Assembly: GCA_947564735.1 (NCBI GenBank)
Contig: CANOEC010000010.1
Coordinates: 46,313-110,312, forward strand
From: an uncultured Lachnospiraceae bacterium
Lineage (GTDB): Bacteria > Bacillota > Clostridia > Lachnospirales > Lachnospiraceae
Reading direction: 5' to 3'
Length of the DNA stretch: 64,000 bases
Below the pieces are notes generated by a model. It worked only from the letters and a program-made list of their open reading frames with translations, searched no databases and had not been told where the DNA came from. Below, one piece after another: positions 21,220-37,255 of this stretch; the stretch's first letter is position 1, and every line of letters begins with the position of its first letter. A program made the translations under genes and the position numbers.

Positions 21220-22518
21220 TTAATTCATTCCCACAACCTTATCCAAGAGCTTTGCAGATTCCCGCTTTGCCTCCCTTGTTGCGTGTGCATAGACATTCAT
21301 GGTAGTGCTTACGTCCGAGTGTCCTAAAAGTTCCTGCACATCCTTTGGCTGTGCCCCGTTTGATAACAGGTTCGTTGTATAGGTGTGTCTTAATGTGTGG
21401 AAGTGGAATCCTTCTAATTCTGGTACTTTCCTTGCCGCTGTCCGGCAGGCTGTTTCTACGGTGGCAGGAAGTTCAAGACAGCCATCTTCCCTCAGGCATA
21501 CAAAGGAGATTTCCGTATAATCCTCCGGCACATTCTCTGTCATTCCTAAATTGTAATACTCATAATGTACCCGATTTTTCTCTGTAACTTCCCTGTAGAA
21601 ATTCCTGTGGTAGAGTTCGTCATACTGCATACGGTTTTTAAGCTGCTGTTTCCTTGCTTTCTTCAAGATGTCAGCGAGGGCATTGCCAAAATCAACAATC
21701 CGTACTTTCTTCCTTTTTGTAGAGCCGATTTCGTGCTTATGGGTAGCGCCGTTGTAGCGGACACTCCTGCGAACTGTCAGGCATTGTTCCTCAAAGTTGA
21801 TATCCTGCCAAGTCAGTCCTGCCACTTCCCCAAGCCTGAGACCTGTAAAATAGGATATCTGTACAGGCAGGATTGCGTCTTTGCTCCGCTTGCCAAGCTG
21901 TGCAATCAGCTTTTGGTACTGCTCAAATGACAGTGGCTTGACCTTGCCATTGTCGGGGTCCGTTTCTTCCGCAAACAAGTCCATATCGTCCTTTTTATGC
22001 CTCATGACTACATACTGCATGGGATTGAATGTAATGTACTGTTTCGGGAACACCGCAAAGCGGAATGACTGCTGTAATACTGCGGAAAATGCCTTTACAT
22101 AGTCTTTGGAATACCCTTTGGAAACAAAATCTTCAATCGTGCCTCCAAAAGACATGATATCCATGAACTGCTGTAAATGCCCCGAAGTGACCGTTTTGAG
22201 TTTTCGTCTGCTTACAGGGTGCTGTTTAATACGGTTGATCGCCTGAAGATAAGTACCAACAGTGCCATTGCTTAATGTGCCTGTCTTTAATTCTTCCTCT
22301 GCCCATGTGTCAAGTAGCTGCCCAAGCGTGATATTGTCTGCCTTTGCAATGAATTTCTTGCTTTCATAATCCTCCATTGCCTGCCTTAACAGCTTTTCCG
22401 TTTCGCTCTTGCTTTCTGTTCCTGCACATTCTTTCTGTACCAGATTCCCGCTTGCGTCCTCCACATAGAAGCGGTAGTACCATTTTTTTCCTTTCTTCCG
22501 TACTGATCCTTTTGCCAT
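21220..22518 (-). CDS. int: Tyrosine recombinase, phage/Tn916-type integrase
   Basis: A 432-residue integrase from ATG 22518 (GGAG upstream). The N-terminal arm-binding domain opens MAKGSVRKKGKKWYYRFYVE. The catalytic residues are in order: Arg in YFTGLRLGEVAGLTW, the H-x-x-R box in FHTLRHTYTTNLL, His in LGHSDVSTTMNVY, and the Tyr nucleophile in that last motif. It lies at the left end of the element, beside the attachment repeat, and would catalyse integration and, with the excisionase, excision. Confidence 0.93.
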   Translation of the reverse strand: MAKGSVRKKGKKWYYRFYVEDASGNLVQKECAGTESKSETEKLLRQAMEDYESKKFIAKADNITLGQLLDTWAEEELKTGTLSNGTVGTYLQAINRIKQHPVSRRKLKTVTSGHLQQFMDIMSFGGTIEDFVSKGYSKDYVKAFSAVLQQSFRFAVFPKQYITFNPMQYVVMRHKKDDMDLFAEETDPDNGKVKPLSFEQYQKLIAQLGKRSKDAILPVQISYFTGLRLGEVAGLTWQDINFEEQCLTVRRSVRYNGATHKHEIGSTKRKKVRIVDFGNALADILKKARKQQLKNRMQYDELYHRNFYREVTEKNRVHYEYYNLGMTENVPEDYTEISFVCLREDGCLELPATVETACRTAARKVPELEGFHFHTLRHTYTTNLLSNGAQPKDVQELLGHSDVSTTMNVYAHATREAKRESAKLLDKVVGMN

Positions 22519-22642
22519 AATCGTTTCTCCTTTCAATGAACGCATTTCTGCGTATGTAATTCATTGAACAGATATGGCAATCGGAACTGATGAAATGCTT
22601 TCTGCTGATAAGGATAGTATAAAATCTGCTGTCCTTCCATAC

Positions 22643-23257
22643 CTAATCGGGATCTTCCTCTGATAAAAGATTGGAAAGTCTTGCAGCGGCAGCATCAGGA
22701 TTTTTGGAGTAGAGCCTCACTATGTCACCCATATCATTAAGGGCATTTACTGTGTGGGTAATCTCCCGAAGGAACATGATTTCATCATATTCCCTCCCTG
22801 ATTCAAATCCCATTGTCTTTGCAAGTTTGGCGCTTTCCTTGTTTCCTTTAAACTTCCTGCACGCAAGACGGAAAGAGTCCACAAACGATTCATATTCCCG
22901 CAGCATCAGCAACAGCAGGTCTTTTGAAAAGTCTGATTCGGAAGTTTCCATGTCATAAGGCAGCTTTGAAAGAATGGAGGACATGGCATCACGGATTAAC
23001 ATTTCCTTTTTATCCGTAATGTCAGATTCGTATTCCTCCGTTTCGCCTTTTAACCACTCTACGGAAACATGGAGAGCATCTGCCAGACCGTCAAGGACGA
23101 GTTTCTTGGTGTTGTCAATCGTTCCTGCCTCATACCTCTGGATAGTGGATGCGGTGACACCCATTTTTTCAGCAACATAAGGCTGGTTGACGCCCAGTTC
23201 CAGTCTCCGCTGTTTTGCTCTGCCGCCGATTATCTTGCGTAGCTCCTTGTCTTTCAT
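22643..23257 (-). CDS. XRE-family transcriptional regulator
   Basis: A 204-residue protein with an N-terminal Cro/C1 helix-turn-helix (RRLELGVNQPYVAEKMGVTA, then STIQRYEAGTID) and a longer helical C-terminal part of unknown function. It is divergent from the excisionase gene. Two palindromic sites lie between them, so it probably represses itself and the xis/mob transcript as the element's maintenance switch. Confidence 0.85.
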   Translation of the reverse strand: MKDKELRKIIGGRAKQRRLELGVNQPYVAEKMGVTASTIQRYEAGTIDNTKKLVLDGLADALHVSVEWLKGETEEYESDITDKKEMLIRDAMSSILSKLPYDMETSESDFSKDLLLLMLREYESFVDSFRLACRKFKGNKESAKLAKTMGFESGREYDEIMFLREITHTVNALNDMGDIVRLYSKNPDAAAARLSNLLSEEDPD

Positions 23258-23311
23258 GTTGGGTTTCCTCCTTTATCGGTATGGTCAGAGTATATCATAT
23301 CAAAAGCAATA

Positions 23312-23413
23312 TTGCAATATGCAAGTTAAAAATAATTTTTAAAATCACATAACGCTTGACAATAAAATATAAATGGTGTATAGTAAGCATACTATAAAAA
23401 TTGCATATTGCAT
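23312..23413 (+). promoter_or_regulatory. xis promoter with paired operator sites
   Basis: TTGACA (23355-23360), a 17-base spacer and TATAGT (23378-23383) form a strong promoter reading toward xis. It is flanked by related palindromes: TTGCAATATGCAA at 23312-23324 and TTGCATATTGCAT at 23401-23413. These are likely binding sites for the divergent XRE regulator. Confidence 0.65.
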
Positions 23414-23432
23414 TTTAAGAGGAGGAGAATGA

Positions 23433-23663
23433 ATGACAGAAATGAAGATTGCCCTTTCGATTGAGGAGGCAGCCGACTACACGGGTGTTGGTCGGAACAC
23501 ACTAAGGAAACTGGTAGAGTGGAATAAGCTCCCTGTATTAAAAGTGGGGAGAAAGGTACTTATCAAAAAGGACATTCTGGAAATGTTTATGACTGTCAAT
23601 GAGGGAAGGGATTTGAGGGACAAGGGCAATGTCAAAGCCGTCACAAGAAAGCCTGCTGTATAA
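23433..23663 (+). CDS. xis: Excisionase-family DNA-binding protein
   Basis: A 76-residue winged-helix protein. IEEAADYTGVGRNTLRKLVE followed by LPVLKVGRKVLIKKDILE is the MerR-like HTH_17/excisionase pattern. AGGAGGAG lies before the start. It is probably the directionality factor for the integrase. Confidence 0.82.
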   Translation: MTEMKIALSIEEAADYTGVGRNTLRKLVEWNKLPVLKVGRKVLIKKDILEMFMTVNEGRDLRDKGNVKAVTRKPAV

Positions 23664-23685
23664 AATGCAGGCGCATAGTTGCAGT

Positions 23686-23831
23686 GAACTTAAAAAATGC
23701 AATCATTTTTGAAAAAAGAACTTAAAAAATGCAGTCACTTTTGAAAAATGAACTCAAAAAGTAAGTTCACTGAAAAACTGTGTGATATATGTTCCGCCAA
23801 AAATGAACTTAAAAAGTGCAATCACTCTGAA
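23686..23831 (+). repeat. Iteron-like direct repeats
   Basis: A unit beginning GAACTTAAAAAATGCA and containing TCA-T/C-TTTTGAAAAA starts at 23686, 23718 and 23750 (spacing 32, 32); a further copy starts at 23805. The third copy is degenerate. The block lies between xis and the oriT-like site. Regular spacing suggests a protein-binding array for replication, transfer or xis regulation. Confidence 0.6.
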
Positions 23832-24012
23832 TAAAGTCAGTTGACTGCCGGAAACAGCAAAAATGAAATTCAGCATAATCAGTACATCTGGGACAGATAA
23901 GGATAACAAAGACGGGCAGAAATAATAAGACTGCTGATAAAACAAGCATAAAACAGCCGGAAAATTGTTTCCAATATGCAGGAGATACATTTCACTGAAT
24001 ACCCTCGGAGAG

Positions 24013-24080
24013 CCCCCGCAGTATTGGCTTGCCAATACTGCTAGGGGGTTATCATCTATGGCAGAGCCAAGATGATAACC
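24013..24080 (+). other. oriT-like nested inverted repeats
   Basis: CAGTATTGGC-TT-GCCAATACTG (24019-24040) is enclosed by CCCCC (24013-24017) and GGGGG (24044-24048). It is followed at once by GGTTATCATCT (24047-24057) pairing with AGATGATAACC (24070-24080). The site is 35 bases before the relaxase start, where MobV-type elements carry their origin of transfer. The nick position is not identified. Confidence 0.55.
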
Positions 24081-24114
24081 GCACTGCTCCAATATGAAAT
24101 CAAGGAGGAAGGAC

Positions 24115-25395
24115 ATGGGAGAAATCTCTTTCAGCAACCACATCAGCAACAAGAAGAGCGCCATCAACAGCAAGGCAAAACTTGCAGGGGTTGCAAAACA
24201 CAATCTGAGGAAGTATCATTCGCAGGATTACAGCAGGGATAACATCACACTTCTTTATGGGACAACGAATCTCATGCAGGACGTGAAAGATGTTTACCGC
24301 AAAGAGTTTGACGCTGCCCTGCATGAATACAATACGAAGCAGAAAAGACCGGAAAGACGGATTGACGATTATTTTGAACATGTATCCGAAACGGAACAGG
24401 ATATGGCAGTGGAAATCATCATACAATGCGGGGATAAGGGCTTTTGGGAACAGAACATGGATGACAGGATATTTATGAAGCAGGTCTATAAGCAGCTCCT
24501 TGTAAAACTGCAGGAATATCTGCCGGATTTTAAGATAGCCAATGCGGTGATCCACTTTGATGAGGCAAGCCCGCACATGCACGTTGTAGGAGTTCCGATA
24601 GGGAGGGGATTTAAACGGGGGCTGTCAACAAAAGTGTCAAAACGTTCCGTATTCACTCCCCAAGTCCTGTCAGAAGTCTTACAGGATAAAATGCGGGCGG
24701 ATGCAAACCATTATATGAAAGCCATATTCCAACAGGAAGTAAAGGAAAAGAAAAAAGGAAAAAACCATGACCTGACTGTTGCGGAATACAAAGTTGCAAA
24801 AGAAGAAGAGAAAATTGAAAAATTATCAACAGATAAAATAGGATTGGAGGCTGACCTTCTCGTCCTGAACCATAAAAAATCCACTACACAAAAGAAACTG
24901 GAGGAACTGGACGGAGAGATTGAAAGTTCCAATATATTTTTTAGAGCAATCCGACAGATAAAACAGTTTATACAGGCGTATCTTCCCTTTGCACCATTGA
25001 TTGAGGAATTTGCGAACCATGTGGAACGTGGGGCGGATATAGAGGCAGGAAACAGCTTTCGTGGCTTGCTGACCGCACTTGGGGAACTGCTGAATTCATT
25101 CAAGGAGATCATAAAAGACGGATTATGCTGGTTTCCACGCCTTATGCGGTGGCAGACCTCAAAAGGCGAAGTTTCCCCTGTGTTTGAAGATAACAGGAAT
25201 GAAGGCTATTACTACCGGCTTAAATCCTATATGGATATCCATACAAGGCAGGAATACCCGAAAGAACTGATACAGCCGGAAATCAAGCTTGAAAACCGTA
25301 CAGGCACAATAGACCAGTTAGCGCAGAATGTGGAAGCTGTTGAAAAGCAGGTACAGTTTATGGGTGTAAAAATGAACAGGAATCAAATGTATTAG
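24115..25395 (+). CDS. mobV: MobV-family relaxase (Pre/Mob)
   Basis: A 426-residue protein from ATG 24115, preceded by GGAGGAAGGAC. Motif I (KHNLRKYHS) and the metal-binding motif III (HFDEASPHMHVVGVPI) are typical of MobV/Pre relaxases, which nick oriT and lead the strand into a recipient. A coiled coil occupies about residues 210-280 (KEEEKIEKLSTDKIGLEADL and onward). A hairpin terminator follows the gene. Confidence 0.9.
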   Translation: MGEISFSNHISNKKSAINSKAKLAGVAKHNLRKYHSQDYSRDNITLLYGTTNLMQDVKDVYRKEFDAALHEYNTKQKRPERRIDDYFEHVSETEQDMAVEIIIQCGDKGFWEQNMDDRIFMKQVYKQLLVKLQEYLPDFKIANAVIHFDEASPHMHVVGVPIGRGFKRGLSTKVSKRSVFTPQVLSEVLQDKMRADANHYMKAIFQQEVKEKKKGKNHDLTVAEYKVAKEEEKIEKLSTDKIGLEADLLVLNHKKSTTQKKLEELDGEIESSNIFFRAIRQIKQFIQAYLPFAPLIEEFANHVERGADIEAGNSFRGLLTALGELLNSFKEIIKDGLCWFPRLMRWQTSKGEVSPVFEDNRNEGYYYRLKSYMDIHTRQEYPKELIQPEIKLENRTGTIDQLAQNVEAVEKQVQFMGVKMNRNQMY

Positions 25396-25552: not shown

Positions 25553-27556
25553 TTATGTAAGATTTTGTTTTGCAACCTCTTTTAGCTTATCAATGAGTTT
25601 TTGAGCATCTTTGGATAATGCACCATTTTCATAAGTCTTAATTAGTTGGTTTGGAAAATAGTTCTCATATATATCCATTTTTTTAGACCATGAAATATCG
25701 TAATCCTCAGTGCCAAGCATACCAACATGTTCCCAGAACATTTTCTTGCCACATGGCAGGTAGATAGTAAAGTCAGGATTTATAGTTTTTCCATCTCCAT
25801 ATTCCAGTAATTCCTCGTATTTATATTTAATACCAGATGCATGGAGTAAATCACAAATGATAACCTCGGATTTGCTTCGTACGTTATTACCATCTACGGT
25901 TGTATAGATACGATTCAGTTGATATTTATCCGTTCCTAAATAACGTGCAATTTCCTGATGTAAATACTGGGAGTTAGGGTTATCTTCAAGTAATTTTACG
26001 AAGTAGTTTAATAATTCATGCTTATATTCTTTCTTTTCGGTAATATCATCAAGCATTATTTTCATCTGCTCGTCTGATATGTCAGTTGATGTGACCTCTA
26101 TTACTAACCATCTTTCTAAGGGTTTTTTGAGTTTTGCTTTTCCTCTAATAATAGAATCGTACACTATATCAGATAATTCTTCAGCAGTTATGTTATTTGC
26201 TTTCATTATACGAACAAAGCCTTTGGATCGTGTGCTATCATAGAGTTCTTGTAATTTAGTATCTTGAATATCATATAATTCTGTAAGACCGGAAAAACCT
26301 TTACAGATTATTTTAATTAGACCAGCTTTCATATAGTATGGCAAACATTCTTGAATGTCTTCATTGTCAAAATAAGCAATCACTCTGTATCCATCACGTT
26401 TTCCTATATTCTTGTAGACTTCCTGTAGCTTTGCCTCTGTTGGAAATGACCTGTCTATAAAATGTGTTCTCTTTACATCTATATTCTTATTGGAATATAG
26501 CAAATAGGCATTAGCACCATATCCGTCACGAGCGGCTCGACCAACCTCTTGATAATATTGCTCTGCGGATTCTGGTATCATAAAATGAATCACATTTCTT
26601 ATATCTTTTATATCAATTCCCATACCAAATGCGTTGGTTGCAAACACAAGGTTGATGTTCCCATTACGGTATTGCTCTATAATATCCATTCGTTCTTTTG
26701 AGGACATTTCTCCATGAAACCATGCTGCCTTATAACCTTTAGAGATTGCCTCCTCACATAAGCCCTCTACAGCACGTTCTCCTTTTTTTCGATATACATA
26801 TACCAATGTTTTTTCGTGACGATGGTTTTTAATTATTTCCCAAAATTTATCTTCTTTTTCATCTTCTTTGTTGAATTTAAGAGTATGGAGTTGAATTTCG
26901 TTTCGCATTAAAACAGTCTGTTTGAGGATATTGTGCTTTGAAATATGGAATTCTTCACAAATATCTTTCAATTCTTTTGGATTAAGAGTAGCGGTTAAGG
27001 CTAAAATTCTGCACCACTTGTCAGCACCGAAAATTCTATCCAGAAAATTTGGTATGCGTTTGTAAAATGGTCTAAAACTCATGCCCCACTGGCTGACACA
27101 ATGCACCTCGTCAATTACCAAGAGTTTTATATCTTCTTTTCTTTGTTTCAGGCAGTATTCAAAAAAGCCATCTGTAGCAAATTTTTCAGGACTGGCAAAG
27201 ATAAATTTTGGCGTACTTTTCTTATTGGCAAAATCGGATAATACAGTCATTTGTTTCTTGGCATTTATACCACCATGAATAACCAATGTTTCATATCCCT
27301 GATCATTTAGCTTTTCAGCCTGTTCAGCAATCAATGCAGTCAATGGGGAAACAACCAGTGTTATTCCTCCAACCTCCATAGCAGACATCCAGTAAATTAT
27401 GGATTTACCACCGCCAGTAGGCATAATGCATAAAGTATTATCTTTTTCTACAAGGTTGTTTATAACATCCTTTTGAAATTCTTTTAGTTGAAAATCAAAA
27501 GAAGGAAAGTATTTCCTAAAATCTTTATCCAAATTAAGCAAATCCCATACCTCCAT
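25553..27556 (-). CDS. RecQ-like superfamily 2 helicase with C-terminal nuclease-like domain
   Basis: A 667-residue protein. Helicase motifs are in order: Q-motif region FQLKEFQ, Walker A MPTGGGKSII, motif II VIDEVHCVSQWG (DEVH rather than DEAH), LTATLNPKEL, motif V ATNAFGMGIDI and motif VI QYYQEVGRAARDG. This is the RecQ arrangement. The last 110 residues (from about 558) hold SKSEVIICDLL, INPDFTIYL and WEHVGMLG, which fits a PD-(D/E)XK-type nuclease seen at the end of some helicases. RecQ proteins normally end in RQC/HRDC domains instead. The start overlaps the upstream gene, so the two proteins are probably partners. A role in DNA defence or element maintenance is an inference. Confidence 0.8.
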   Translation of the reverse strand: MEVWDLLNLDKDFRKYFPSFDFQLKEFQKDVINNLVEKDNTLCIMPTGGGKSIIYWMSAMEVGGITLVVSPLTALIAEQAEKLNDQGYETLVIHGGINAKKQMTVLSDFANKKSTPKFIFASPEKFATDGFFEYCLKQRKEDIKLLVIDEVHCVSQWGMSFRPFYKRIPNFLDRIFGADKWCRILALTATLNPKELKDICEEFHISKHNILKQTVLMRNEIQLHTLKFNKEDEKEDKFWEIIKNHRHEKTLVYVYRKKGERAVEGLCEEAISKGYKAAWFHGEMSSKERMDIIEQYRNGNINLVFATNAFGMGIDIKDIRNVIHFMIPESAEQYYQEVGRAARDGYGANAYLLYSNKNIDVKRTHFIDRSFPTEAKLQEVYKNIGKRDGYRVIAYFDNEDIQECLPYYMKAGLIKIICKGFSGLTELYDIQDTKLQELYDSTRSKGFVRIMKANNITAEELSDIVYDSIIRGKAKLKKPLERWLVIEVTSTDISDEQMKIMLDDITEKKEYKHELLNYFVKLLEDNPNSQYLHQEIARYLGTDKYQLNRIYTTVDGNNVRSKSEVIICDLLHASGIKYKYEELLEYGDGKTINPDFTIYLPCGKKMFWEHVGMLGTEDYDISWSKKMDIYENYFPNQLIKTYENGALSKDAQKLIDKLKEVAKQNLT

Positions 27557-28520
27557 CTCTTATCTGCGATTTCATAACAGAAATATCAGCATCATGTTCA
27601 AGGGCAACATATTCAAGGAAAGCATCTACTATGATATAGCGATAATCCGGATCTATGTAAGCATTAAGTTCAGTAGCCTTATCACGAAGAAGTTTGTAGA
27701 TTTCAAAAGCATAATATACAAATAATGTATACGGATAAAAGTAATTCTGCTGGACTACTCCTTTATCTACATCTATCATTAAAAACTCAGAGTCCATAGT
27801 ACAGTTGTATTTCGATTTGCCTGACAAATACCACAATGCCCATAATGCACTTCTGCTACGATTTGGGAAAAGCCCTGGGTATACTTTATACAACATATGC
27901 GTTTTTATACCACCGCCAATTACTCCATAGGCTGTATAATCATCTGTATCCATTAAGTTCATACTTAAATCTTCATAGGTTTCGTAGTTCTCATATTCCT
28001 CTTCATCATAATTTTGGGCATATTCATCAGCAAACTTACATAGATTTGTGACCACCTCCAAGAGCCAATCAGCATCAGCATGACTGAAATTTCCCCTGTA
28101 TTTATCAAGCTCTTTTGCTTTTCTGTTTGCAAGGGTTTTTCGGATAATGGGGCATTCATTTCTAAGGATTTTAGACTTAAAATGATCAGCATCATCAACT
28201 AAATCTTCCAATAGCTCCATATCCATTATCTTTGAATAATCACCTTGATCCTTTTCGTATTTAACTAAGGATTCTTTTATTATCGACTTATAATTAATGG
28301 AGAGTTGTTTGCTGGATATAGGTTTGGTATATTTCCCATCTATACCAAATTTCTTTTGAAGTTTTGTAAAATCTTCATCTGTTAATCCATTTCCGGCGTT
28401 TGTTTCAAGAAAACGCTGGAAATATCCCTCAAAATTCTTCTTGATTTCTCCTAAAACTTTTTTGATATGTTCATAATCGTAACAAGGTTCTTCTACATCA
28501 ATGCCTGCACCCACATACAT
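27534..28520 (-). CDS. Unrecognised partner protein of the RecQ-like helicase
   Basis: A 328-residue, largely acidic and helical protein from ATG 28520, which has GGAGGT upstream. I recognise no domain. Visible features are a Tyr/Glu-rich run (QNYDEEEYENYETYEDL), a possible GKSKY loop in WALWYLSGKSKYNCTMDSEF that is not a real Walker A motif, and an aromatic hydrophobic segment (YFYPYTLFVYYAFEIYKLLR). No signal peptide is seen. The end overlaps the helicase start by 23 bases, implying translational coupling and a shared function. Confidence 0.65.
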   Translation of the reverse strand: MYVGAGIDVEEPCYDYEHIKKVLGEIKKNFEGYFQRFLETNAGNGLTDEDFTKLQKKFGIDGKYTKPISSKQLSINYKSIIKESLVKYEKDQGDYSKIMDMELLEDLVDDADHFKSKILRNECPIIRKTLANRKAKELDKYRGNFSHADADWLLEVVTNLCKFADEYAQNYDEEEYENYETYEDLSMNLMDTDDYTAYGVIGGGIKTHMLYKVYPGLFPNRSRSALWALWYLSGKSKYNCTMDSEFLMIDVDKGVVQQNYFYPYTLFVYYAFEIYKLLRDKATELNAYIDPDYRYIIVDAFLEYVALEHDADISVMKSQIRDGGMGFA

Positions 28521-28607
28521 GGTTTGTACCTCCAATTCTTTTGTTGCTATATCGTTTTGTCATAGCGTGAATCTACTTCGTAAATCAATATGTAAGTTAC
28601 AAAACAT

Positions 28608-28986: not shown

Positions 28987-29640
28987 TTAAAAATCATCAA
29001 TAACACGGATGAGGTTCTGTTTTGCATACCAGCTGTCGCAGAGAATGATGACATTCTTCTTGCTGTAGAGTGCAGGCATCACCTGTCTGATCATGGAAAC
29101 GGCAAGGTCAAGCTTCGTGGCGTCTTTTTTCCACATGCGATATCCCAGGGGGACGGCAGTGTAAGAGCTCTTCTATCCTTTCCGGACGGGGACGCAGAGC
29201 ATGAGGCTGACAAAGTAGTGGTCGTTAAGGTAATTGGAGCCGTTGTGTGCGGCATGATCGAACGGTTTTGAAACATCTTCAAACTTTGTACCGAATTTTT
29301 CGTCCATGGTATCGTCAACACAGAGGAACACAGGCTGAGTGTCAAGTCTCTGTGGGACAATCTTCAGAGCCAGAGCCGCAGTTACTCCCATAAATCACAT
29401 GTAATCAGCCTTTGCATAGGAGCAGGTATAATAGAAAGCATTGAGCGACTTTTCTGTAATCTTCGATAGGAAATGCCTGAAGAGGAAGCGGATTGAATCA
29501 GCGGCTTCCAATGCTAGCATGGAAAGCACCAAAAGGAAAAGAGCTTTTGCCGTTGGAGCTGAGAACGCGGAAAAATATATGTAAAGTTTGCCAATCACGG
29601 TATTTCTGTTGTATAATAAATTTGACGTACAGGGTCGCAC
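28987..29640 (-). pseudogene. DDE transposase, decayed insertion sequence
   Basis: Fragments of one transposase read in order: ITEKSLNAFYYTCSYAKADY, an in-frame TGA, FMGVTAALALKIVP, QPVFLCVDDTMDEKFG (first catalytic Asp), then after a frameshift near 29175 AVPLGYRMWKKDATKLDLAV and NVIILCDSWYAKQNLI (second catalytic Asp). It stops at 28987 before the Glu region. The protein is IS4-superfamily-like. It has at least one stop, one frameshift and a truncation, so it cannot act by itself. Confidence 0.75.
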
Positions 29641-29727
29641 TCCTTCGTGTATTATTTGAACGCAAACTTATTATACAACGGGGAGAGCTTTGTGCGTCAT
29701 TTTATTTGAAAAACTTGTAAATTGGTG
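29611..29727 (+). repeat. Long inverted repeat, left copy (IS end)
   Basis: This 117-base sequence, upstream of the decayed transposase, is present as a nearly identical reverse complement at 34838-34955. It contains an internal 16-bp palindrome (TTGTATAATAAATTTG and CAAACTTATTATACAA), as insertion-sequence ends often do. Confidence 0.75.
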
Positions 29728-29768
29728 TGCTTTGATCATCCATTATGGATACCTCCTTTGATTTTGAT

Positions 29769-31561
29769 AATCTCTCGGAATCTCTAAGCCGGTAAAATCA
29801 AGGCTTTCAGATCCTTTTTTATTAAAATCCCCCACTTTTTTGCCAAAAACTCTTGACATTTCCATCGAAAAATGCGGCGCTTCGCGCCCTTGATCAAAAG
29901 CATATTTTTCGATCGAAGGCGATTTCATTTGTTACCTGTTAATTCCGGCGGCCATTCCGCCTATCAAAACTTTGTTGTTGATAATCTTCGTAAATATTAT
30001 CCTGATCCGGATTCCATCCCACGTTCTGTCTGGGATATCATTGACCGTTTCTGGAACCTTGATCTCTCCTACACTGATGAAAAACTCAAAAACAAATATT
30101 CCATCTTTGGTCCAAAACCGAGGACTCCTTCCAGCATGCACCGTTCCTATCTGCTCTCTATTGATTTTAAGGTTACTTCCATTACTGAATGGGTTGCAAT
30201 GCTTAAGATCAATCCTCTTTTTGCTATCCTAAGCGGCTTTGAGGTCGGTGATACCCCTGGTGTCGGCACTTTCTACGATTTCTTTGACCGTCTCTGGGAT
30301 TCCGATGATGATAACTTTTCCCCTCATCTCCTTCCTTTAAAATCTTCCGTCAAAAAACCCTCAAAGAAAGGAAATAAAGCTGCTTCTGTGGAAAAACTGA
30401 CGGTGGAACATCTCCTGAAAAAGCTCGAAGCACAGTCTCCTTCCCTGGATGGCCAGCCCTTTGCTTCCCTGTTTGACCTTTTCCACAAAGAATTCCTCCT
30501 AGAGTCTGTTAAGAAAGGGCTTATCAATAACTCCAGCCTTTCCATTGCCGGCGACGGTACACCTGTCGTAACCTCTGCAAGGGAACGGAAACGTCGTATC
30601 TGTGACTGCTCAGAGAAAGGCTTTTCTGACTGCAGCTGCGATCGTTACTTCTCACAGCCTGACTGTGACATTGGATGGGATTCCTCCCGCGAATGCTTTT
30701 ACTTCGGCTATGACCTGTACATGCTTGTCGCCTCTGATTCCGAAAGCGACCTGCCCGTATTCCCTCTGCTGAATCCTGCCTCCCGGCATGACTCACATGG
30801 GTTCCTTTATGCCTATTTTGATATGATAAACTTCCTTCCACAATTCCATGTCAAAAAACTGCTCCTTGACTCTGCACATGATGCCATGCCTATCTATGAA
30901 TACTGTAAAAGAAATGGCATCATCCCATTTATTGACCTCAATGAAAAACGCGACATCAGGACAAAATACAAAGATGACTTCACCATCGGTAAAGATGGCA
31001 TTCCTGTCTGCAGAGCCGGCAGGAAAATGAACCATGACGGTGTGGAGCGGAGCAAATATCGTATAAAATACCGCTGTCCGCTTGCCAGCCGCAGATACGG
31101 CTGTTCCTGTCAGGAGCCATGTTCGGATTCCAAGTATGGCAGGACTGTACACCTTGCCATGAAAGATAACCCAAGGCTGATAAACATCCCTCCCCGGGAC
31201 AGTAGGGAATGGAAAACTGAGTTCAATACCAGAACCTCGGCAGAGCGTTCCAATAAACGCCAGAAATTAGACTTTCTGTTAGAAAGCGGCAGACACCGCT
31301 CTACTAAGATGTGGTACTGCCGCCTCTATCACATCCTGATGTTACAGCATCTGGATGCATGGGATCTGCCATTTGAATCCACCCTACGAAAGTTGATTTT
31401 GAATGCAGCATGATCCTATGACTATCATACCTTATTTTCAGGCATAATGACAGTATTATGTCTATTTTCCATACCCATCTTTTCAATTTAGGATAATATT
31501 TACTTTTCAATGTTCAATGCCAGAACTTTGCTGGCATGATCACTCATAATTCCGAGAGATC
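29769..31561 (+). mobile_element. Insertion sequence with 8-bp target duplication
   Basis: The 1,793-base unit has imperfect ends (ATCTCTCGGAAT at 29770-29781 and ATTCCGAGAGAT at 31549-31560) and contains one transposase gene. The flanking ATTTTGAT occurs at 29761-29768 and again at 31562-31569, an 8-bp target-site duplication. The matching duplication suggests the insertion is fairly recent. It landed beside the older IS end at 29611-29727. Confidence 0.7.
29872..31413 (+). CDS. DDE transposase
   Basis: A 513-residue transposase spanning the insertion sequence. Candidate catalytic residues are Asp in SLSIAGDGTPVVTSARERK, Asp in KKLLLDSAHDAMPIYEYCKR, and Glu in NTRTSAERSNKRQ; the last is the YREK-like region of IS4/IS5/IS1182-type transposases. 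A Cys-rich insertion (CDCSEKGFSDCSCDRYFSQP) and a second one (CPLASRRYGCSCQEPC) could bind zinc. The exact start is unsure because no strong ribosome binding site precedes Met1. The gene is full-length without visible breaks. Confidence 0.82.
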   Translation: MRRFAPLIKSIFFDRRRFHLLPVNSGGHSAYQNFVVDNLRKYYPDPDSIPRSVWDIIDRFWNLDLSYTDEKLKNKYSIFGPKPRTPSSMHRSYLLSIDFKVTSITEWVAMLKINPLFAILSGFEVGDTPGVGTFYDFFDRLWDSDDDNFSPHLLPLKSSVKKPSKKGNKAASVEKLTVEHLLKKLEAQSPSLDGQPFASLFDLFHKEFLLESVKKGLINNSSLSIAGDGTPVVTSARERKRRICDCSEKGFSDCSCDRYFSQPDCDIGWDSSRECFYFGYDLYMLVASDSESDLPVFPLLNPASRHDSHGFLYAYFDMINFLPQFHVKKLLLDSAHDAMPIYEYCKRNGIIPFIDLNEKRDIRTKYKDDFTIGKDGIPVCRAGRKMNHDGVERSKYRIKYRCPLASRRYGCSCQEPCSDSKYGRTVHLAMKDNPRLINIPPRDSREWKTEFNTRTSAERSNKRQKLDFLLESGRHRSTKMWYCRLYHILMLQHLDAWDLPFESTLRKLILNAA

Positions 31562-31686
31562 ATTTTGATGTGGCTGCAAACCCACACCATTATTTTTAGT
31601 ACTTCAAGCAACGCTATAGCTCATTCTATTCTCCCCATCTCAGATGGTGGATTAAAATACGTTTTCATTAAAATTTTAGAAAAAGA

Positions 31687-31715
31687 TTGACACGTATTGA
31701 AATACGTGTTACACT
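31687..31715 (+). promoter_or_regulatory. Promoter with operator palindrome for the hicAB operon
   Basis: TTGACA (31687-31692), 17 bases and TACACT (31710-31715) form a promoter. The spacer is filled by the palindrome ACACGTATT-ga-AATACGTGT (31690-31709). An antitoxin binding there would block the promoter, as expected for autoregulated toxin-antitoxin genes. Confidence 0.7.
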
Positions 31716-31793
31716 GAAGTGGTAGCAAGAGGCCAGTAGACAATGTTGAGTATGCAAAGACATTTGCCAATACTGACTTAGGAGGTTCCTTGA

Positions 31794-31988
31794 ATGAAAG
31801 GTGCTGTTGCTACAAGACATGTCCTAAAAATCTTAGGACAAAATGGCTGGAGAAGAATAAGGGTGAATGGTAGTCATGCTATTTATTCTAAAGATGGAAT
31901 TTCAGTTCCTATCAAGGTAACAAAAAAAGAAATCCCCATTGGTACATTATCCAGCATAATGAAAATAACCGGGCTTAGTTTTGACTAA
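31794..31988 (+). CDS. hicA: HicA-family toxin (mRNA interferase)
   Basis: A 64-residue YcfA/HicA protein. It has the double-stranded-RNA-binding-like fold pattern with catalytic His28 in VNGSHAIYS and the C-terminal IPIGTLSSIMKITGLS. HicA cleaves mRNA and is held by HicB. AGGAGG lies before the start. It is the first gene of a four-gene run. A strong hairpin overlaps its last codons. Confidence 0.88.
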   Translation: MKGAVATRHVLKILGQNGWRRIRVNGSHAIYSKDGISVPIKVTKKEIPIGTLSSIMKITGLSFD

Positions 31989-32000
31989 GCTCGGTTATTT
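31963..32000 (+). promoter_or_regulatory. Hairpin between hicA and hicB
   Basis: AAATAACCGGGCTTAGT (31963-31979) pairs with ACTAAGCTCGGTTATTT (31984-32000), 17 bp with one mismatch and a four-base loop. It covers the hicA stop codon. There is no T run, so it is more likely an RNA processing, stability or translation-control element than a plain terminator. Confidence 0.6.
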
Positions 32001-32018
32001 AAAAGAAAGGATATAGAA

Positions 32019-32414
32019 ATGGAAAAATATATTTATCCAGCAGTGTTTTCTTATGAGGAAGTAATATATATTCGTTTTCCTGATTTTCCAGAATGTGTAT
32101 CAGATGCAGAATGTGAAACAGAAGCATATTCAAATGCAAAAGAGGTATTGGAGTTATGGTTATACGATATGGAATGTAGGGGAATTAGTTTTCCAAGGAA
32201 AAGTGTGTTAAAAGATATTCCTCTATCTGATAATGAGATATTGGTTTTAATTGAGGTTTCCATGCCAGTAGTTAGAGATAAGGTAAAAAATATCTATGTT
32301 AAAAAAACTTTAACTATACCCAAATGGCTGGATGAATTAGGAAAGGCAGAAAATGTTAATTTTTCGCTTTTGTTACAAAATGCGTTAAAAGAATATTTAG
32401 GAGAAAAAAAATGA
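32019..32414 (+). CDS. hicB: HicB-family antitoxin
   Basis: A 131-residue protein. The N-terminal half is the RNase H-like HicB fold (YPAVFSYEEVIYIRFPDFPE followed by AYSNAKEVLELWL). The C-terminal part (TIPKWLDELGKAENVNFSLL) looks like a ribbon-helix-helix DNA-binding domain. It would neutralise HicA and repress the palindromic promoter. Its stop overlaps the next start (ATGA), tying the SEC-C gene to the toxin-antitoxin pair. Confidence 0.87.
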   Translation: MEKYIYPAVFSYEEVIYIRFPDFPECVSDAECETEAYSNAKEVLELWLYDMECRGISFPRKSVLKDIPLSDNEILVLIEVSMPVVRDKVKNIYVKKTLTIPKWLDELGKAENVNFSLLLQNALKEYLGEKK

Positions 32415-33790
32415 ATGTAAATGCATATATAAAATGCAATGTATGTGGATGTGTTACTAGGGTAAAAGTGCAGGCCGGATGGTTGAGAGAGCATCCTATT
32501 GCGATATATTGTGGAGAGTGCAATATTTTGATTGAGGGCACAGTGTTTCAAGATCCTGATGAAGGACAGATTGGATTACAGTTTAAAAATGCTACTAGAG
32601 TATCATATGGCGAAGAGGCTGACTATTTTGTAGAGTCATCGGGTGAGTTTATAACTTTCAAAATGGTTTCCGAAGATGATCCAAGAGTAATGCTGTCATC
32701 TGTTATGACGCCGTTTATCCGAAATGCACATGATGATAAAAATGAAATTTACAGACATAATTTTATGGCACTGTTTAAAATGAAAGAGGATGAATGGAGA
32801 ACTATTCGGAGGGTATTTGAATTATGGAGTAATCATAGTAGTGAACTGTATTTAAAGCAAGAATTGAAAAGAAACTTAATAAAACCGCAAGAAAGTGACC
32901 TCCTTTGGCAAGAGAAGGGATTGCATACTTTGTTTAATAGGGTTGGAAAATTCATGAAATATGACGAGGGAAAATTAGATGCAATTATTACAAGTATGAA
33001 GAAACTGCCATATAGGGAAGTGAAAGAGTTATTGAAATTTTTAAGTTCAAAAGAATATCTGGTTAATTGTAAAAGAAGAATATATGAGATTACTAATCAA
33101 TATATTGACAAGTTTCAATATATGATGCCGGCATATAAGGAGTTGCTAAAAGAGGTAGAGGTAGATTATAGTAATTTTGGAATTACAACAACATCATTTG
33201 AAATGCTCAAAGATTTTTACATTAGTTGTTATGAATTATTGGGAGATATGGTTCCGATTCTTAATGGGTTAAATAATATTTTACTACGGAAAAGATATAA
33301 TGAGAGTACGGACACAAAAATAAAATATGAGGATCTTTTATATAAGCCGAATTCATTAAAAGTGAAAAAATATATTCCAGAGGAAGGATTTTCAAAATTA
33401 GTTTCAATAAAGTTTAATGAAAGGATGAGGAATGCCATTGGGCATTATGACTATAAAATAGAAGGAAAGAGTCAAAAAATTTTGTATACAAGAAATACAA
33501 ATCATACTGAGCATAAAGAATATGAGGATGAAATCTATTTATTGGAGTTTACCATAGATTGTTTGAAATTATATCAATCTGTAGTATATATGGAAGAAAT
33601 AATTTATTTACTGGAAACGGCAGATTATAGCGGAAGTGGAGAAAAAATATCTTATTTAAAAAAGAAAATATATCCAAATGATCCATGTCCATGTGGGAGT
33701 GGAATGAAGTACAAAAAATGTTGTGATAAATTGATTGATAAGTACTGCAATTATATAGAGGTAATGGGAGGTATAGATAATGCCATTTGA
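32411..33790 (+). CDS. SEC-C motif protein with RX4H (HEPN-type) motif
   Basis: A 459-residue protein. The N-terminus has a two-knuckle zinc-ribbon pattern (IKCNVCGCVT and IYCGECNILIEG). The C-terminus has a SEC-C zinc motif (DPCPCGSGMKYKKCC, about residues 423-437). Between them, RNAIGHYDY places Arg340 and His345 in the R-x4-H arrangement of HEPN ribonuclease domains. By analogy it could bind and cut RNA, but this is unproven. It is linked to hicB by a 4-base overlap and to the next gene by an 11-base overlap. I know no named system with this order. Confidence 0.65.
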   Translation: MNVNAYIKCNVCGCVTRVKVQAGWLREHPIAIYCGECNILIEGTVFQDPDEGQIGLQFKNATRVSYGEEADYFVESSGEFITFKMVSEDDPRVMLSSVMTPFIRNAHDDKNEIYRHNFMALFKMKEDEWRTIRRVFELWSNHSSELYLKQELKRNLIKPQESDLLWQEKGLHTLFNRVGKFMKYDEGKLDAIITSMKKLPYREVKELLKFLSSKEYLVNCKRRIYEITNQYIDKFQYMMPAYKELLKEVEVDYSNFGITTTSFEMLKDFYISCYELLGDMVPILNGLNNILLRKRYNESTDTKIKYEDLLYKPNSLKVKKYIPEEGFSKLVSIKFNERMRNAIGHYDYKIEGKSQKILYTRNTNHTEHKEYEDEIYLLEFTIDCLKLYQSVVYMEEIIYLLETADYSGSGEKISYLKKKIYPNDPCPCGSGMKYKKCCDKLIDKYCNYIEVMGGIDNAI

Positions 33791-34556
33791 TTCGGAAGAT
33801 GTAATGTATAAAGCTCTTGCTGAAATATTAGATGTTGATTTATGGATTATTCAGTTAATTGAACCATATATAGGAGAGGATACTGGAAGTTCAAAAGAAG
33901 AATGGCATTATGGATATTATGCTGAAATTCCATCTTATGAAAGTCTTGATAAAACAGTGCAGGAAGAGATAGAAGAACAAATAGATATTGAAACGTTTCC
34001 GTTTGGTCGAACACTGTATTTTACAGATGGAGAGTTATCAGAAACTAAAGCCGACCCATTAGGATGGCGTACTGATTTCGAAGCTGAAGAATATTATCAA
34101 AAGAACCCCCTTCAGAAAGATAATGTTATTGATGAATTATATTCAATATCAAAAAAATTGAGAGTATATGATGACGCAATAAATACCAAGGCTTTGCTAT
34201 TTAGCGCTTTTAGTATTACGGAGAGCTATGTCCGTTCATTGATTTGGGATAAGATACCTGATTTGGATAGCGAGGTAAAAAATACGAAACTACGCAAGAT
34301 ATTGAAGAAACATTTGTACGACAAATTAAGTAGAACTTCTGGAAGAGAAGAATTGTATAAAGAATTTACAAGTAAAACATTAAAAAAAATTCCCTTTAGT
34401 GATCCATATAGGAATTCGTTGGCACATGATGTCGGACAAGCACAAGTAATAGAAGGAGATATTATAGTAAAAGATAAAAATGATAAAGAGTGCAGGCACA
34501 ATATGGATGCAATTATAAATGATTTAATAGTTTATGTCCAAAATGTGGATAATTAA
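33780..34556 (+). CDS. Putative HEPN-domain protein
   Basis: A 258-residue protein. The C-terminal helical region carries YRNSLAHDVGQAQ, giving Arg211-x4-His216, the RX4-6H motif of HEPN nucleases and their inactive relatives. The helix before it (ALLFSAFSITESYVRSLIWD) is typical of the HEPN/RiboL-PSP-like four-helix bundle. The acidic N-terminus is unrecognised. The start overlaps the SEC-C gene by 11 bases. It ends the operon. A protein-binding or RNase role beside HicAB is an inference. Confidence 0.6.
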   Translation: MPFDSEDVMYKALAEILDVDLWIIQLIEPYIGEDTGSSKEEWHYGYYAEIPSYESLDKTVQEEIEEQIDIETFPFGRTLYFTDGELSETKADPLGWRTDFEAEEYYQKNPLQKDNVIDELYSISKKLRVYDDAINTKALLFSAFSITESYVRSLIWDKIPDLDSEVKNTKLRKILKKHLYDKLSRTSGREELYKEFTSKTLKKIPFSDPYRNSLAHDVGQAQVIEGDIIVKDKNDKECRHNMDAIINDLIVYVQNVDN

Positions 34557-34837
34557 ACAGACATTTGAAATATAGCATATATTTTCATTCATCTGTATAA
34601 CTTTCCTAAATGTGAATGTTGAAAAATGGAATGTTAAATTTAAATTGAGCGTGAAGGAATGCAAAGACTTTTTTAAATGGCAATTACGAGTCAAGCGCAT
34701 AGTGACTGGAACCAAGATAAACTTATAAACTTGTTTTGCAATGCCTATCAGGCGTTATTAAAAAGATTTGCTCTATTTTATGGGAGATTTCCCGCTGGGG
34801 TGTAGCGTTTCTTTTATAGGCAATGTAATAATAATTT
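34557..34837. other. Non-coding stretch, nothing recognised
   Basis: AT-rich sequence between the HEPN gene and the inverted IS end. No gene, clear promoter or RNA family could be supported. Confidence 0.5.
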
Positions 34838-34955
34838 CACCAGTTTACAAGTTTTTCAAATAAAATGACGCACAAAGCTATCCCTGTTGTATAATAAGTT
34901 TGCGTTCAAATAATACACGAAGGAGTGTGACCCTGTATGTCAAATTTATTATAAA
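34838..34955 (-). repeat. Long inverted repeat, right copy (IS end)
   Basis: Reverse complement of 29611-29727 with few differences. No transposase remains beside it. Together the two copies enclose the complete HicAB/SEC-C/HEPN operon and the later insertion sequence. Confidence 0.75.
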
Positions 34956-35023
34956 TAAAGAAAGCATTTCAATCAGTTCTTCCTGTCCTGTTCATTTCAT
35001 GTTATAATTTGTTACAGGTTTTT

Positions 35024-35095
35024 CTTTCCCTTATTTTTGCCCTTATGAGGGTTCGTAACATGAGGGAAAAGGATATAACACAAGGGAAAATCTAA
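35024..35095. repeat. Right-end integrase arm-type repeats
   Basis: TTCCCTTATTTTTGCCCTTA, CATGAGGGAAAAGGATA and ACAAGGGAAAATCTAAGGGC repeat the AAGGGAAAA and AAGGGCAAA words found near the integrase at 21161-21210. They probably serve as arm-type sites of the recombinase. Confidence 0.45.
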
Positions 35096-35197
35096 GGGCA
35101 AACTCACATGCTATAAATTTAGCAATTTCAAGGGTTTGCGAACTTTTTGGAGATAAGATATAACAGTTATTAAATGTTATAAATTAGGTCTTATCAG

Positions 35198-35273
35198 AAT
35201 TCCAGTTTATCTATTAACTGATTTAACTTTCCCCTATTTTCAAGGCTTTGCGGTATGCCAAACCTCAAAATAT
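35198..35273. repeat. Right attachment repeat (att)
   Basis: Second copy of the 54-base direct repeat, with one mismatch to 21080-21133. It marks the right boundary of the element and abuts a blaR1 fragment. Confidence 0.75.
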
Positions 35274-35475
35274 TGCACCAAAAGAATGAAAGCATTGGTA
35301 TCACCATGCGGTGACTGCTGTTGCGGCAGGGAAATAGAATGGGTTATGGTCCGGTCGATTGTCTGATAGGCTTTTCCTATCAAGTTTGTTTCTGGTCCAA
35401 AAGGCAATAACAGCCGTACAACAACAATGAGCCAGAAAAAGACATAGGCAAAAACATTTTCAATAAAATGTTCAT
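35273..35475 (-). pseudogene. BlaR1/MecR1-type (M56) sensor fragment
   Basis: The start MNILLKMFLPMSFSGSLLLY at 35475 is typical of BlaR1-family membrane peptidases but ends early. A second frame continues with FFWLIVVVRLLLPFGPETNL, then loses homology at the attachment repeat. The protease and sensor domains are missing. The start overlaps the BlaI fragment by ATGA, the usual blaI-blaR1 arrangement. Confidence 0.7.
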
Positions 35476-35594
35476 TTTTCTGTTCTTCCTTTCTCCAAGA
35501 GTTTTTTCAATTCCTCATATTCTTCGTCTGCCAGTAGGTCTCCAGAAATCAAATCGGAAGCAAACCATTTTGCATTTCCTTCATAAATTTTGTA
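35472..35594 (-). pseudogene. BlaI/MecI repressor C-terminal fragment
   Basis: An open stretch ends in SGDLLADEEYEELKKLLEKG, the C-terminal dimerisation part of BlaI-family repressors. The DNA-binding half is absent upstream, where a stop codon interrupts the frame. Confidence 0.65.
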
Positions 35595-35702
35595 TTAAAA
35601 TAACAGACAGCACGCTCCGCGAACTGTCCTTATATTAATAAGAACCGTTTTGAACGTATAGTTGAAAACGGTTCCAAATGATAAAATTTTTTCTATTTTA
35701 CG

Positions 35703-36001
35703 CTTAGAACTTACATCGTAAAATCTCTGCAAATTCTTCTGATATCTTTTTCGCATTTTCATTTTTCCAAAATGCACAATAATTTCGTTTGATTGGCTCA
35801 TTTCCCCGATACAATGGAATCCTCATAATATTTGTTCCAAGCTGTCCACTGTAACAGCGTAAAAACCAACTCCCTTTCCAATGCCTGTATCTGCTGTGAT
35901 ATGGCGGATTGTAAGATATTACATTCATAAGCTGCTTCCGAAAAACTATTGTTCTTCACAACAGCTTGAAAATATTTCATCTGTCTTAGCAAAACATTCA
36001 C
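35703..36001 (-). pseudogene. LysR-family regulator, truncated
   Basis: The N-terminal 45 codons (MNVLLRQMKYFQAVVKNNSF then CNILQSAISQQIQALEREL) are the LysR helix-turn-helix. The reading frame is then broken and only short pieces such as MSQSNEIIVHFGKM follow in another frame. The effector domain is lost. It is divergent from the C45 hydrolase gene, which it may once have regulated. Confidence 0.7.
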
Positions 36002-36166
36002 CTCTGTTCAACATTCCTACTGTTTTCCATTATATTTAATCAAGTATGGGCATTCAAGAACAGATTTTGACAGTATTTTCTCTCATTCGTATTTTAAGTT
36101 TTTCTTGTCCCTTCTTTATAAAATTCCCCGTATTTTAGAGGACACGTATAAACCAATTTTATTTCA

Positions 36167-36235
36167 TTGACATAAATTTTTTATTTTGATAGCATTTTAA
36201 CCAGAGCAGGCGCCTACTCAAAAACAGTAGGAGGA
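36167..36235 (+). promoter_or_regulatory. Promoter and RBS-masking hairpin for the C45 hydrolase
   Basis: TTGACA (36167-36172), 17 bases and TAGCAT (36190-36195) form a promoter. CCTACT (36213-36218) can pair with AGTAGG (36226-36231), which overlaps the AGTAGGAGG ribosome binding site. Nothing else was recognised in 36002-36166. Confidence 0.5.
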
Positions 36236-36244
36236 ACAAAGATA

Positions 36245-37255
36245 ATGTATCATGGAAGATTTAGAAAAAGCCATTATGAAACAGGTTATAACTGGGGAGC
36301 CCTGTTATATAAGCACGGCAAAAAAATAGACCGGAACGTGACCTTGCAGGCAACTCAGGAACGCAGACTATTTGCAAAAGAATGTCTGCCCATTTATGAG
36401 AAATATTATCCCGAAATTTTGGATGAAATCAGAGGCTTGGCAGACGGACAAAGAGGCAGCTACGAAGATTTTTATACGTTTCTGTTAAGCATGTATTGTT
36501 TTGAGGTCAATAATCATTGTACTTGTTTTGCATTTGCAGATAAGGAGCATTTTATATTTGGCAGAAACAGCGATTTTCTTGTTGCACTGGAAAAGCTCTA
36601 TATGAACTGTCTGTATAAACTGAATGGCGTGTATGGTTTTAACGGAAACACGACGGCTTTTATCGAAATGGAAGACGGGATAAATGAACATGCTTTAGCA
36701 GTTGGTCTTACCTTTATATACCCTAAGATGATAAACGCAGGTTTTAATTCCGGTATGCTGGTGCGGTATTTATTAGAAAAATGCAAAACCGTTGATGAAG
36801 CGATTGAACGTCTGCATATGCTTCCCATTGCTTCACAGCAGACGTTGACGGTTATGGATCATTTTGGTAATTGTGCTGTCATAGAATGTAACTGCAATCA
36901 TGTTGAGGTAATAAGACCCACCAAAGAGCATCCTTTTGTCGTGGCTGCAAACGGTTTTGTTTCCCCAAATATGATTGAATACAATCATCATAACATAGAT
37001 GACTGGCGCTCAAGCGAACGATATGCTACCGCTTACCATGCGCTAATGAAAAATGAAAACAATTATTCTTTGGAACTGGCACGGGATATTTTATCCGGCA
37101 AATATGGGTTCATGTGCCAGTATGAACGAAAGAAGGGCGCCGATACCGTATGGTCAGTCATTTATGATGTAAAAAACAAAAAGATTTATAGAGTTGAAGG
37201 GAATCCGTCACGCAAGAAATTTATTGAAGATACCAGAATAGGTAACTTCCTTTGA
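36245..37255 (+). CDS. C45-family acyltransferase/hydrolase (penicillin acylase-like)
   Basis: A 336-residue Ntn-hydrolase of the acyl-CoA:6-aminopenicillanate acyltransferase (AAT/C45) group. The family self-cleaves to expose a catalytic Cys; here NNHCTCFAFAD offers Cys92. Further family signs are IFGRNSDFL, GLTFIYPKMINAGFNSGMLV and VMDHFGNCAVIECN. The substrate is an amide or beta-lactam side chain in relatives but cannot be assigned here. It has its own promoter and terminator and is divergent from the LysR remnant. Confidence 0.82.
   Translation: MYHGRFRKSHYETGYNWGALLYKHGKKIDRNVTLQATQERRLFAKECLPIYEKYYPEILDEIRGLADGQRGSYEDFYTFLLSMYCFEVNNHCTCFAFADKEHFIFGRNSDFLVALEKLYMNCLYKLNGVYGFNGNTTAFIEMEDGINEHALAVGLTFIYPKMINAGFNSGMLVRYLLEKCKTVDEAIERLHMLPIASQQTLTVMDHFGNCAVIECNCNHVEVIRPTKEHPFVVAANGFVSPNMIEYNHHNIDDWRSSERYATAYHALMKNENNYSLELARDILSGKYGFMCQYERKKGADTVWSVIYDVKNKKIYRVEGNPSRKKFIEDTRIGNFL

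Follow-up and report, generated by a model that had tools for sequence, protein, structure and literature searches.

A hicAB operon of an uncultured Lachnospiraceae bacterium is followed by the gene for a likely HEPN-like SEC-C protein

We analysed a stretch of 64,000 nucleotides (nt), hereafter the window, from contig CANOEC010000010.1 of a gut bacterium, an uncultured member of the Lachnospiraceae (assembly GCA_947564735.1, genome of 4.5 Mb), in which a hicAB toxin-antitoxin pair is followed by two further genes, here called gene 3 and gene 4 (Table 1). The four genes lie head to tail, and calling of open reading frames (ORFs) gives gaps of 30, -4 and -11 bases between them, as an earlier note on this DNA had described. 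That note had proposed a defence module in which HicAB is joined to two proteins carrying the motif of HEPN RNases. Our analysis favours, with a probability of about one half, a looser arrangement: an autoregulated hicAB pair with two passenger genes behind it, of which gene 3 would act alone as a mobile HEPN-like RNase in phage defence. The closest match to the window locus lies in a metagenome-assembled genome (MAG), also of an uncultured Lachnospiraceae bacterium, and is called L001 here; other loci carry numbers of the same kind.

The product of hicA matches the Pfam family HicA_toxin (PF07927, E 1.3e-13, 51.3 bits against a cut-off of 27) and phrog_353, annotated as 'toxin' (E 3.1e-13), and that of hicB matches HicB_lk_antitox (PF15919, E 2.8e-8, 34.4 bits, cut-off again 27) and the HicB-like phrog_497 (E 7.4e-32). 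Both parts of a type II HicAB system, a HicA toxin domain and an adjacent HicB antitoxin 30 nt away, are present. The promoter and the palindromic operator candidate that had been pointed out ahead of hicA are also there, the palindrome being a perfect 9+2+9; taken together, promoter-like sites are about as frequent in this region as in shuffles (21 observed against a mean of 19.9). According to Gerdes 2024 (PMC10865869), HicB binds at such promoter palindromes in studied hicAB operons, and classes 3 and 4, which have a DNA-binding HicB, share with our locus the order hicA before hicB and a palindrome in the promoter region, here a candidate operator. Read by eye, the C-terminus of HicB looks ribbon-helix-helix-like, and the pair would fit class 4. 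What sets the locus apart from those classes is that two more genes overlap serially after hicB. The same source places toxin-antitoxin loci near transposases and within defence islands, and its text mentions neither HEPN nor SEC-C.

Two features had been overlooked, the 116-nt inverted repeats described below and a strong hairpin that spans the stop codon of hicA. The hairpin has a predicted minimum free energy of -23.7 kcal/mol (z -7.4; equally stable shuffles 0/200) and a T-rich 3' side. A pattern scan found a terminator-like site near the hicA stop on the minus strand only (31990-31973), and Rfam gave no match over 29000-36500. The hairpin may let less transcription through to hicB and genes 3 and 4, and because of it a single transcript for all four genes is less certain. 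Of 10 loci in which a loose pattern recognised a hicA, 8 (the window, L071, L073, L078, L080, L081, L084 and L090) have a stem-loop below -10 kcal/mol across the hicA stop, compared with 44 of 96 control stop codons; the mean z is -2.4 versus -0.55 for the controls, and just 2 of the 10 loci versus 10 of the 96 controls have a z below -3. The recurring stem-loop may be a device placed between the toxin and the antitoxin gene.

Gene 3 encodes a protein with the two zinc motifs reported for it, an N-terminal Cys4 zinc-ribbon-like part (C9, C12, C34 and C37) and a SEC-C motif at the other end (Pfam PF02810, E 2.1e-8, residues 423-438). Its central, HEPN-like region holds the previously noted Arg340-x4-His345 pair as part of an RN-x3-H motif (R340, N341 and H345; RNAIGH), and phrog_13366, a family with no assigned function, matches residues 171-401 (E 8e-12), excluding both metal-binding ends. 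The loose R-x4-6-H pattern from which HEPN RNases had been proposed means little alone, because it is carried by 64% of composition shuffles (n=5000) of gene 3 and 34% of those of gene 4, and we rejected it as HEPN evidence by itself; the tighter R[NDH]-x3-H appears in 4.0% and 2.0% of 5000 shuffles, respectively. The motif support for gene 3 is its conservation. All 15 aligned copies have the same residues at R340, N341 and H345 and also at E275, N289 and R293, and I343 is kept in 14, so that an R-x4-6-H with a polar residue after the arginine runs through the whole aligned family. Cysteines 9, 12, 34 and 37 are kept in all 12 copies that reach them; those of SEC-C are absent from L045 and L047, and the last one is a histidine in L041. 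The alignment consists of the window, L001 and 13 others, with 24-31% identity to the window protein in the longer alignments; three copies (L047, L048 and L053) are incomplete and several are near-duplicates, so the 15 copies are not 15 independent lineages.

The HEPN RNases of defence and abortive infection have in common with gene 3 an R-x4-6-H with a polar N after the arginine; the residue in that position is mostly N, D or H, and some of the HEPN proteins studied need the R/H pair to be catalytic, according to Anantharaman 2013 (PMC3710099), whose text makes no mention of SEC-C. When nine members of the gene 3 family were scanned against HEPN families, three families matched one member each below threshold: pEK499_p136 (E 0.0054, L047), Csm6_6H (E 0.0055, L009) and Cas13a (E 0.0086). 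Gene 3 is therefore graded here as a likely HEPN protein, and the reading of its product as a putative HEPN-type RNase is supported at the level of motif and family.

Selection on the gene is purifying: of 7 pairs compared, 6 have a ratio of nonsynonymous to synonymous change (dN/dS) of about 0.12-0.29 (among them dN 0.009 and dS 0.052 for the window versus L001, 0.028 and 0.095 for L037 versus L038, 0.068 and 0.55 for L041 versus L045). Longer homologues occur in at least 3 of 391 other genomes of the order (G175, G204 and G382), a lower bound since at most four candidates were scored per genome and SEC-C motifs crowded them, in 1 of 340 other genomes of the class (G975) and on one viral contig (L041). 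Plasmids yielded homologues in 28 of 72,556 records, all from Enterococcus or Lactococcus, and 29 with the E. faecalis relative as query. Phage records gave a single match to gene 3, confined to the SEC-C end, and none to the E. faecalis relative; viral scans with two gene 3 relatives gave no match, and the scan with the L041 protein returned its own contig only. We found no description of the family in the literature searched, which combined SEC-C with HEPN, phage, abortive infection and toxin-antitoxin and took in few subscription papers and no preprints.

The neighbours of gene 3 homologues point towards defence. A known defence gene, or a gene beside one, precedes the homologue in 3 of 5 non-plasmid loci, a small sample taken without a matched control. 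A GmrSD-type gene lies 26 nt upstream in L045 (PADLOC; GmrSD_C E 1e-23 on the C-terminal part), and Shedu SduA (E 2.4e-164) lies 36 nt upstream of a frameshifted copy in L047. In L041 a GmrSD-like protein of 1015 residues with the same kinds of PADLOC matches is followed by a gene for 175 residues, 97 nt upstream of the homologue, and a helicase matching PADLOC C3a193 (E 7.7e-270) lies downstream on the opposite strand. Downstream of the L046 homologue are a PIN-domain gene and a gene for a small Swt1-like HEPN protein, and no defence neighbour was seen in L048. Among the plasmid loci, the two from Lactococcus have a Fic-family gene some 0.4 kb upstream, L039 has a PemK/MazF pair downstream, and in L054 an AbiGi-family gene lies on the opposite strand, roughly 1.6 kb upstream. 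Two side observations belong here: the Swt1-like HEPN protein near the PIN-domain gene has 112 residues (L046 9516-9854; PF18731, E 4.5e-8), and the Shedu gene and frameshifted gene 3 copy of L047 are followed by a gene for a 214-residue protein with no Pfam or PADLOC match (7864-8508).

The three other loci in which a gene 3 relative comes after a nuclease-type defence gene would also suit a different role, in which genes 3 and 4 are HEPN-like non-nucleases serving as RNA-binding or regulatory partners of neighbouring enzymes, for instance as antitoxin-like or sensor subunits for GmrSD, Shedu or HicA. Two metal-binding ends are apt for binding nucleic acid or protein, and the L045 copy lacks the SEC-C end. 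We nevertheless consider such a role rather unlikely, as R340 and H345 are invariant in all 15 copies, including plasmid copies that have no such neighbour, and catalysis by some HEPN proteins needs the pair (PMC3710099).

A number of results weigh against a mobile HEPN-like RNase behind hicAB. Neither gene 3, nor its scanned relatives, nor gene 4 reaches the cut-off of any described HEPN family, a difference from the HEPN RNases of PMC3710099; the best value in the gene 3 family, E 0.0054, comes from a relative, the sub-threshold matches of relatives rest largely on the motif itself, and a HEPN fold of genes 3 and 4 is putative. The window's gene 3 has no HEPN match of its own, DUF6509 (E 0.0028) being the only match in the region scanned, and its PADLOC matches are confined to the SEC-C end. 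When profiles were compared, the gene 3 region matched a RiboL-PSP HEPN protein with a probability of 1.8% and gene 4 with one of 0.4%. The structure prediction and Foldseek searches that had been suggested produced poor models of both proteins and no significant match. For gene 3 (residues 216-412, three sequences) the mean predicted local distance difference test score (pLDDT) was 49.7, at which a helix order compatible with HEPN is no evidence, and the best Foldseek match, among the best 50 of 68, was an MCL-1 entry (E 0.79), not HEPN. For gene 4 (residues 112-258, single sequence; mean pLDDT 48.2) only chance-level matches appeared, the best at E 3.2 and AbiV among them at E 7.3. One pair of gene 3 copies, L037 and L054, differs by 7 nonsynonymous and 0 synonymous changes. 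The 8 plasmid loci, whose annotation is incomplete, have no nuclease-type defence gene directly upstream, and the hairpin after hicA may end transcription ahead of genes 3 and 4. Searches against solved structures returned only SEC-C, SecA and YchJ zinc motifs and chance matches for gene 3, three chance matches for its profile and nothing for gene 4; PF18735 matched once in 101 genomes, at an unrelated locus (L094).

In order to see whether the four genes travel together, we compared hicA, hicB and gene 4 with the 13 other gene 3 loci, namely 8 plasmid loci (L037-L039 and L050-L054) of 29 plasmid records together with L041 and L045-L048, mostly with at least about 5 kb of flank. None of the 13 matched (tblastn, E 0.01); only L001 did. 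Likewise, neither gene 3 nor gene 4 was found beside any other hicB in 29 loci (tblastn, E 0.001, about 1.5 kb of flank), and the ORF that follows on the same strand differs in kind from locus to locus. Relatives of hicB are present at E 1e-8 in 64 of 200 genomes of the family, the window's own included; this second test drew on 30 loci (29 besides the window's own, three loci shorter) of 102 matches listed and bears mainly on gene 3, gene 4 often falling beyond the flank. Both tests used the proteins of this operon, which very divergent hicAB may escape. Operon DNA matched 6 of 61 genomes, its own in full and five others in short pieces at the SEC-C motif only. We therefore rejected the idea that the four genes form a conserved unit: in the loci examined, the parts are not linked across lineages as a conserved hicAB-HEPN defence module would be, and a four-gene defence module is not supported. 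Unlinked homologues are what the earlier note had itself named as speaking against its module, and this part of it falls in the loci examined.

The L001 locus is informative here. Compared with the window, its hicA shows no change, its hicB differs by 1 synonymous and 2 nonsynonymous substitutions and its gene 3 by 13 and 10, respectively; all three are intact, and gene 4 next to them carries a premature stop and several small deletions. As L001 is a MAG, single-base gaps could be assembly errors, yet some of the damage is of another sort. In the L001 strain gene 3 thus does not depend on gene 4 for being kept harmless, and we rejected gene 4 as an antitoxin required by gene 3. A true four-part system, in which HicAB and both HEPN-like proteins cooperate, for instance with HicB or gene 4 restraining gene 3 or with RNases firing sequentially during infection, would account for the frame overlaps of -4 and -11 bases, the one promoter with its palindrome and the survival of hicA, hicB and gene 3 in two genomes. 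We hold it to be improbable in view of the 13 and 29 unlinked loci, the decay of gene 4 beside an intact gene 3, and the strong hairpin separating hicA from the rest.

For gene 4 the proposed Arg211-x4-His216 is present as a single RN-x3-H (R211, N212 and H216; RNSLAH), and with this motif and one sub-threshold match its product is a possible HEPN protein; of the two HEPN RNases proposed, it is gene 3 whose motif is backed by a family, with no family cut-off reached for either. That match is to the reverse transcriptase-associated HEPN profile of PADLOC (RTasHEPN, PDLC03820), to positions 4-92 of which residues 136-219, the motif included, align at an E of only 0.0068. No reverse transcriptase was seen among the six neighbouring proteins scanned with Pfam, the nearer ORFs having been partly scanned, and RTasHEPN had 0 matches in 101 genomes as well as in 14 control genomes. 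Gene 4 has no Pfam match, and phrog_24923 matches residues 131-203 (E 0.022). No relatives were found in plasmids, phages or viral contigs (for the last, with a scan limited to close relatives), nor in 396 further genomes from the family and 397 from the phylum, leaving the window and the decayed L001 copy as the copies found.

The cassette is bounded by inverted repeats whose arms match at 111 of 116 positions (96% complementary); no further copy was found in its own genome (E 0.001) and none on plasmids. The description of the surroundings as a mobile element was right, because the surrounding region contains genes for a tyrosine integrase, a helix-turn-helix (HTH) protein, a Mob/Pre relaxase and a RecQ-like helicase, and the part with the first three looks like an integrative mobilisable element carrying the cassette. 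The C-terminal end of the RecQ/DpdF-like helicase matches PADLOC PDC-S68, and its gene overlaps one for a 333-residue protein with no Pfam or PADLOC match; the two are a possible defence pair on the same element. The stretch from the left repeat to the operon contains an insertion, absent from L001 and flanked by the 8-base repeat ATTTTGAT, whose ORF of 513 residues is transposase-like (DDE_Tnp_1, PF01609, below cut-off). A chance assembly, in which cargo landed behind hicAB within the inverted-repeat element with no role tied to hicAB or defence, would agree with these flanking repeats and with linkage seen in just two closely related loci, in one of which gene 4 is decaying, but is made doubtful by the overlap of the hicB and gene 3 frames in both genomes, the low dN/dS of gene 3 and the defence neighbours in three other loci.

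Table 1. Positions in the window of the operon, its signals and the features around it
Feature	Position	Strand	Basis or remark
Tyrosine integrase, HTH protein, Mob/Pre relaxase	21220-25395		
RecQ/DpdF-like helicase	25553-28535	-	PADLOC PDC-S68 at C-terminal end; overlaps gene for 333 residues
Left 116-nt inverted repeat bounding cassette	29612-29727	.	96% complementary to right repeat; also in L001
Insertion with transposase-like ORF	29769-31561		absent from L001
Sigma-70-type promoter TTGACA-17-TACACT	31687-31715	+	sequence reading; TTGACA 31687-31692, TACACT 31710-31715
Palindromic operator candidate ACACGTATT-GA-AATACGTGT inside promoter	31690-31709	.	sequence reading; identical in L001
hicA, mRNA-interferase toxin gene, 64 residues	31794-31988	+	PF07927, phrog_353; no change versus L001
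17-bp RNA hairpin across hicA stop codon, possibly terminator-like	31963-32000	+	folding; same sequence in L001
hicB, antitoxin/repressor gene, 131 residues	32019-32414	+	PF15919, phrog_497
Gene 3, 459 residues, zinc-ribbon/HEPN-like/SEC-C	32411-33790	+	PF02810, phrog_13366, 15-copy alignment
Gene 4, 258 residues, near-orphan, RN-x3-H in C-terminal half	33780-34556	+	ORF; PADLOC RTasHEPN below threshold
Right 116-nt inverted repeat bounding cassette	34838-34953	.	96% complementary to left repeat; also in L001

The reading that we prefer, an ordinary autoregulated hicAB pair with genes 3 and 4 expressed behind it as passengers, would work as follows. HicB bound to the palindrome would repress the promoter; upon depletion of HicB, HicA would be freed and transcription of the whole set, genes 3 and 4 included, would rise, and hicAB would thereby give the cassette regulation and stability. 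The gene 3 product would most likely be an RNase in its own right, triggered by infection or stress and acting in phage defence. Its two metal-binding ends may recognise RNA or a phage product, upon which a HEPN-like dimer would cut RNA by means of R340 and H345 and growth of the infected cell would stop. Gene 4 would be a second HEPN-like protein, dispensable to gene 3. A bolder and improbable extension is that the gene 3 family comprises undescribed mobile RNases of zinc-ribbon/HEPN/SEC-C build that are interchangeable downstream add-ons to GmrSD, Shedu and HicAB, with the HicB operator raising the add-on when antitoxin is lost during infection.

What is most valuable in these results is the family of gene 3 together with the genes next to its members. 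If gene 3 encodes an RNase, a protein that plasmids of Enterococcus and Lactococcus carry under no more than the label 'SEC-C metal-binding' or 'hypothetical' would become a candidate effector of phage defence, and its occurrence behind GmrSD, Shedu and HicAB would exemplify how one effector is joined to different defence operons.

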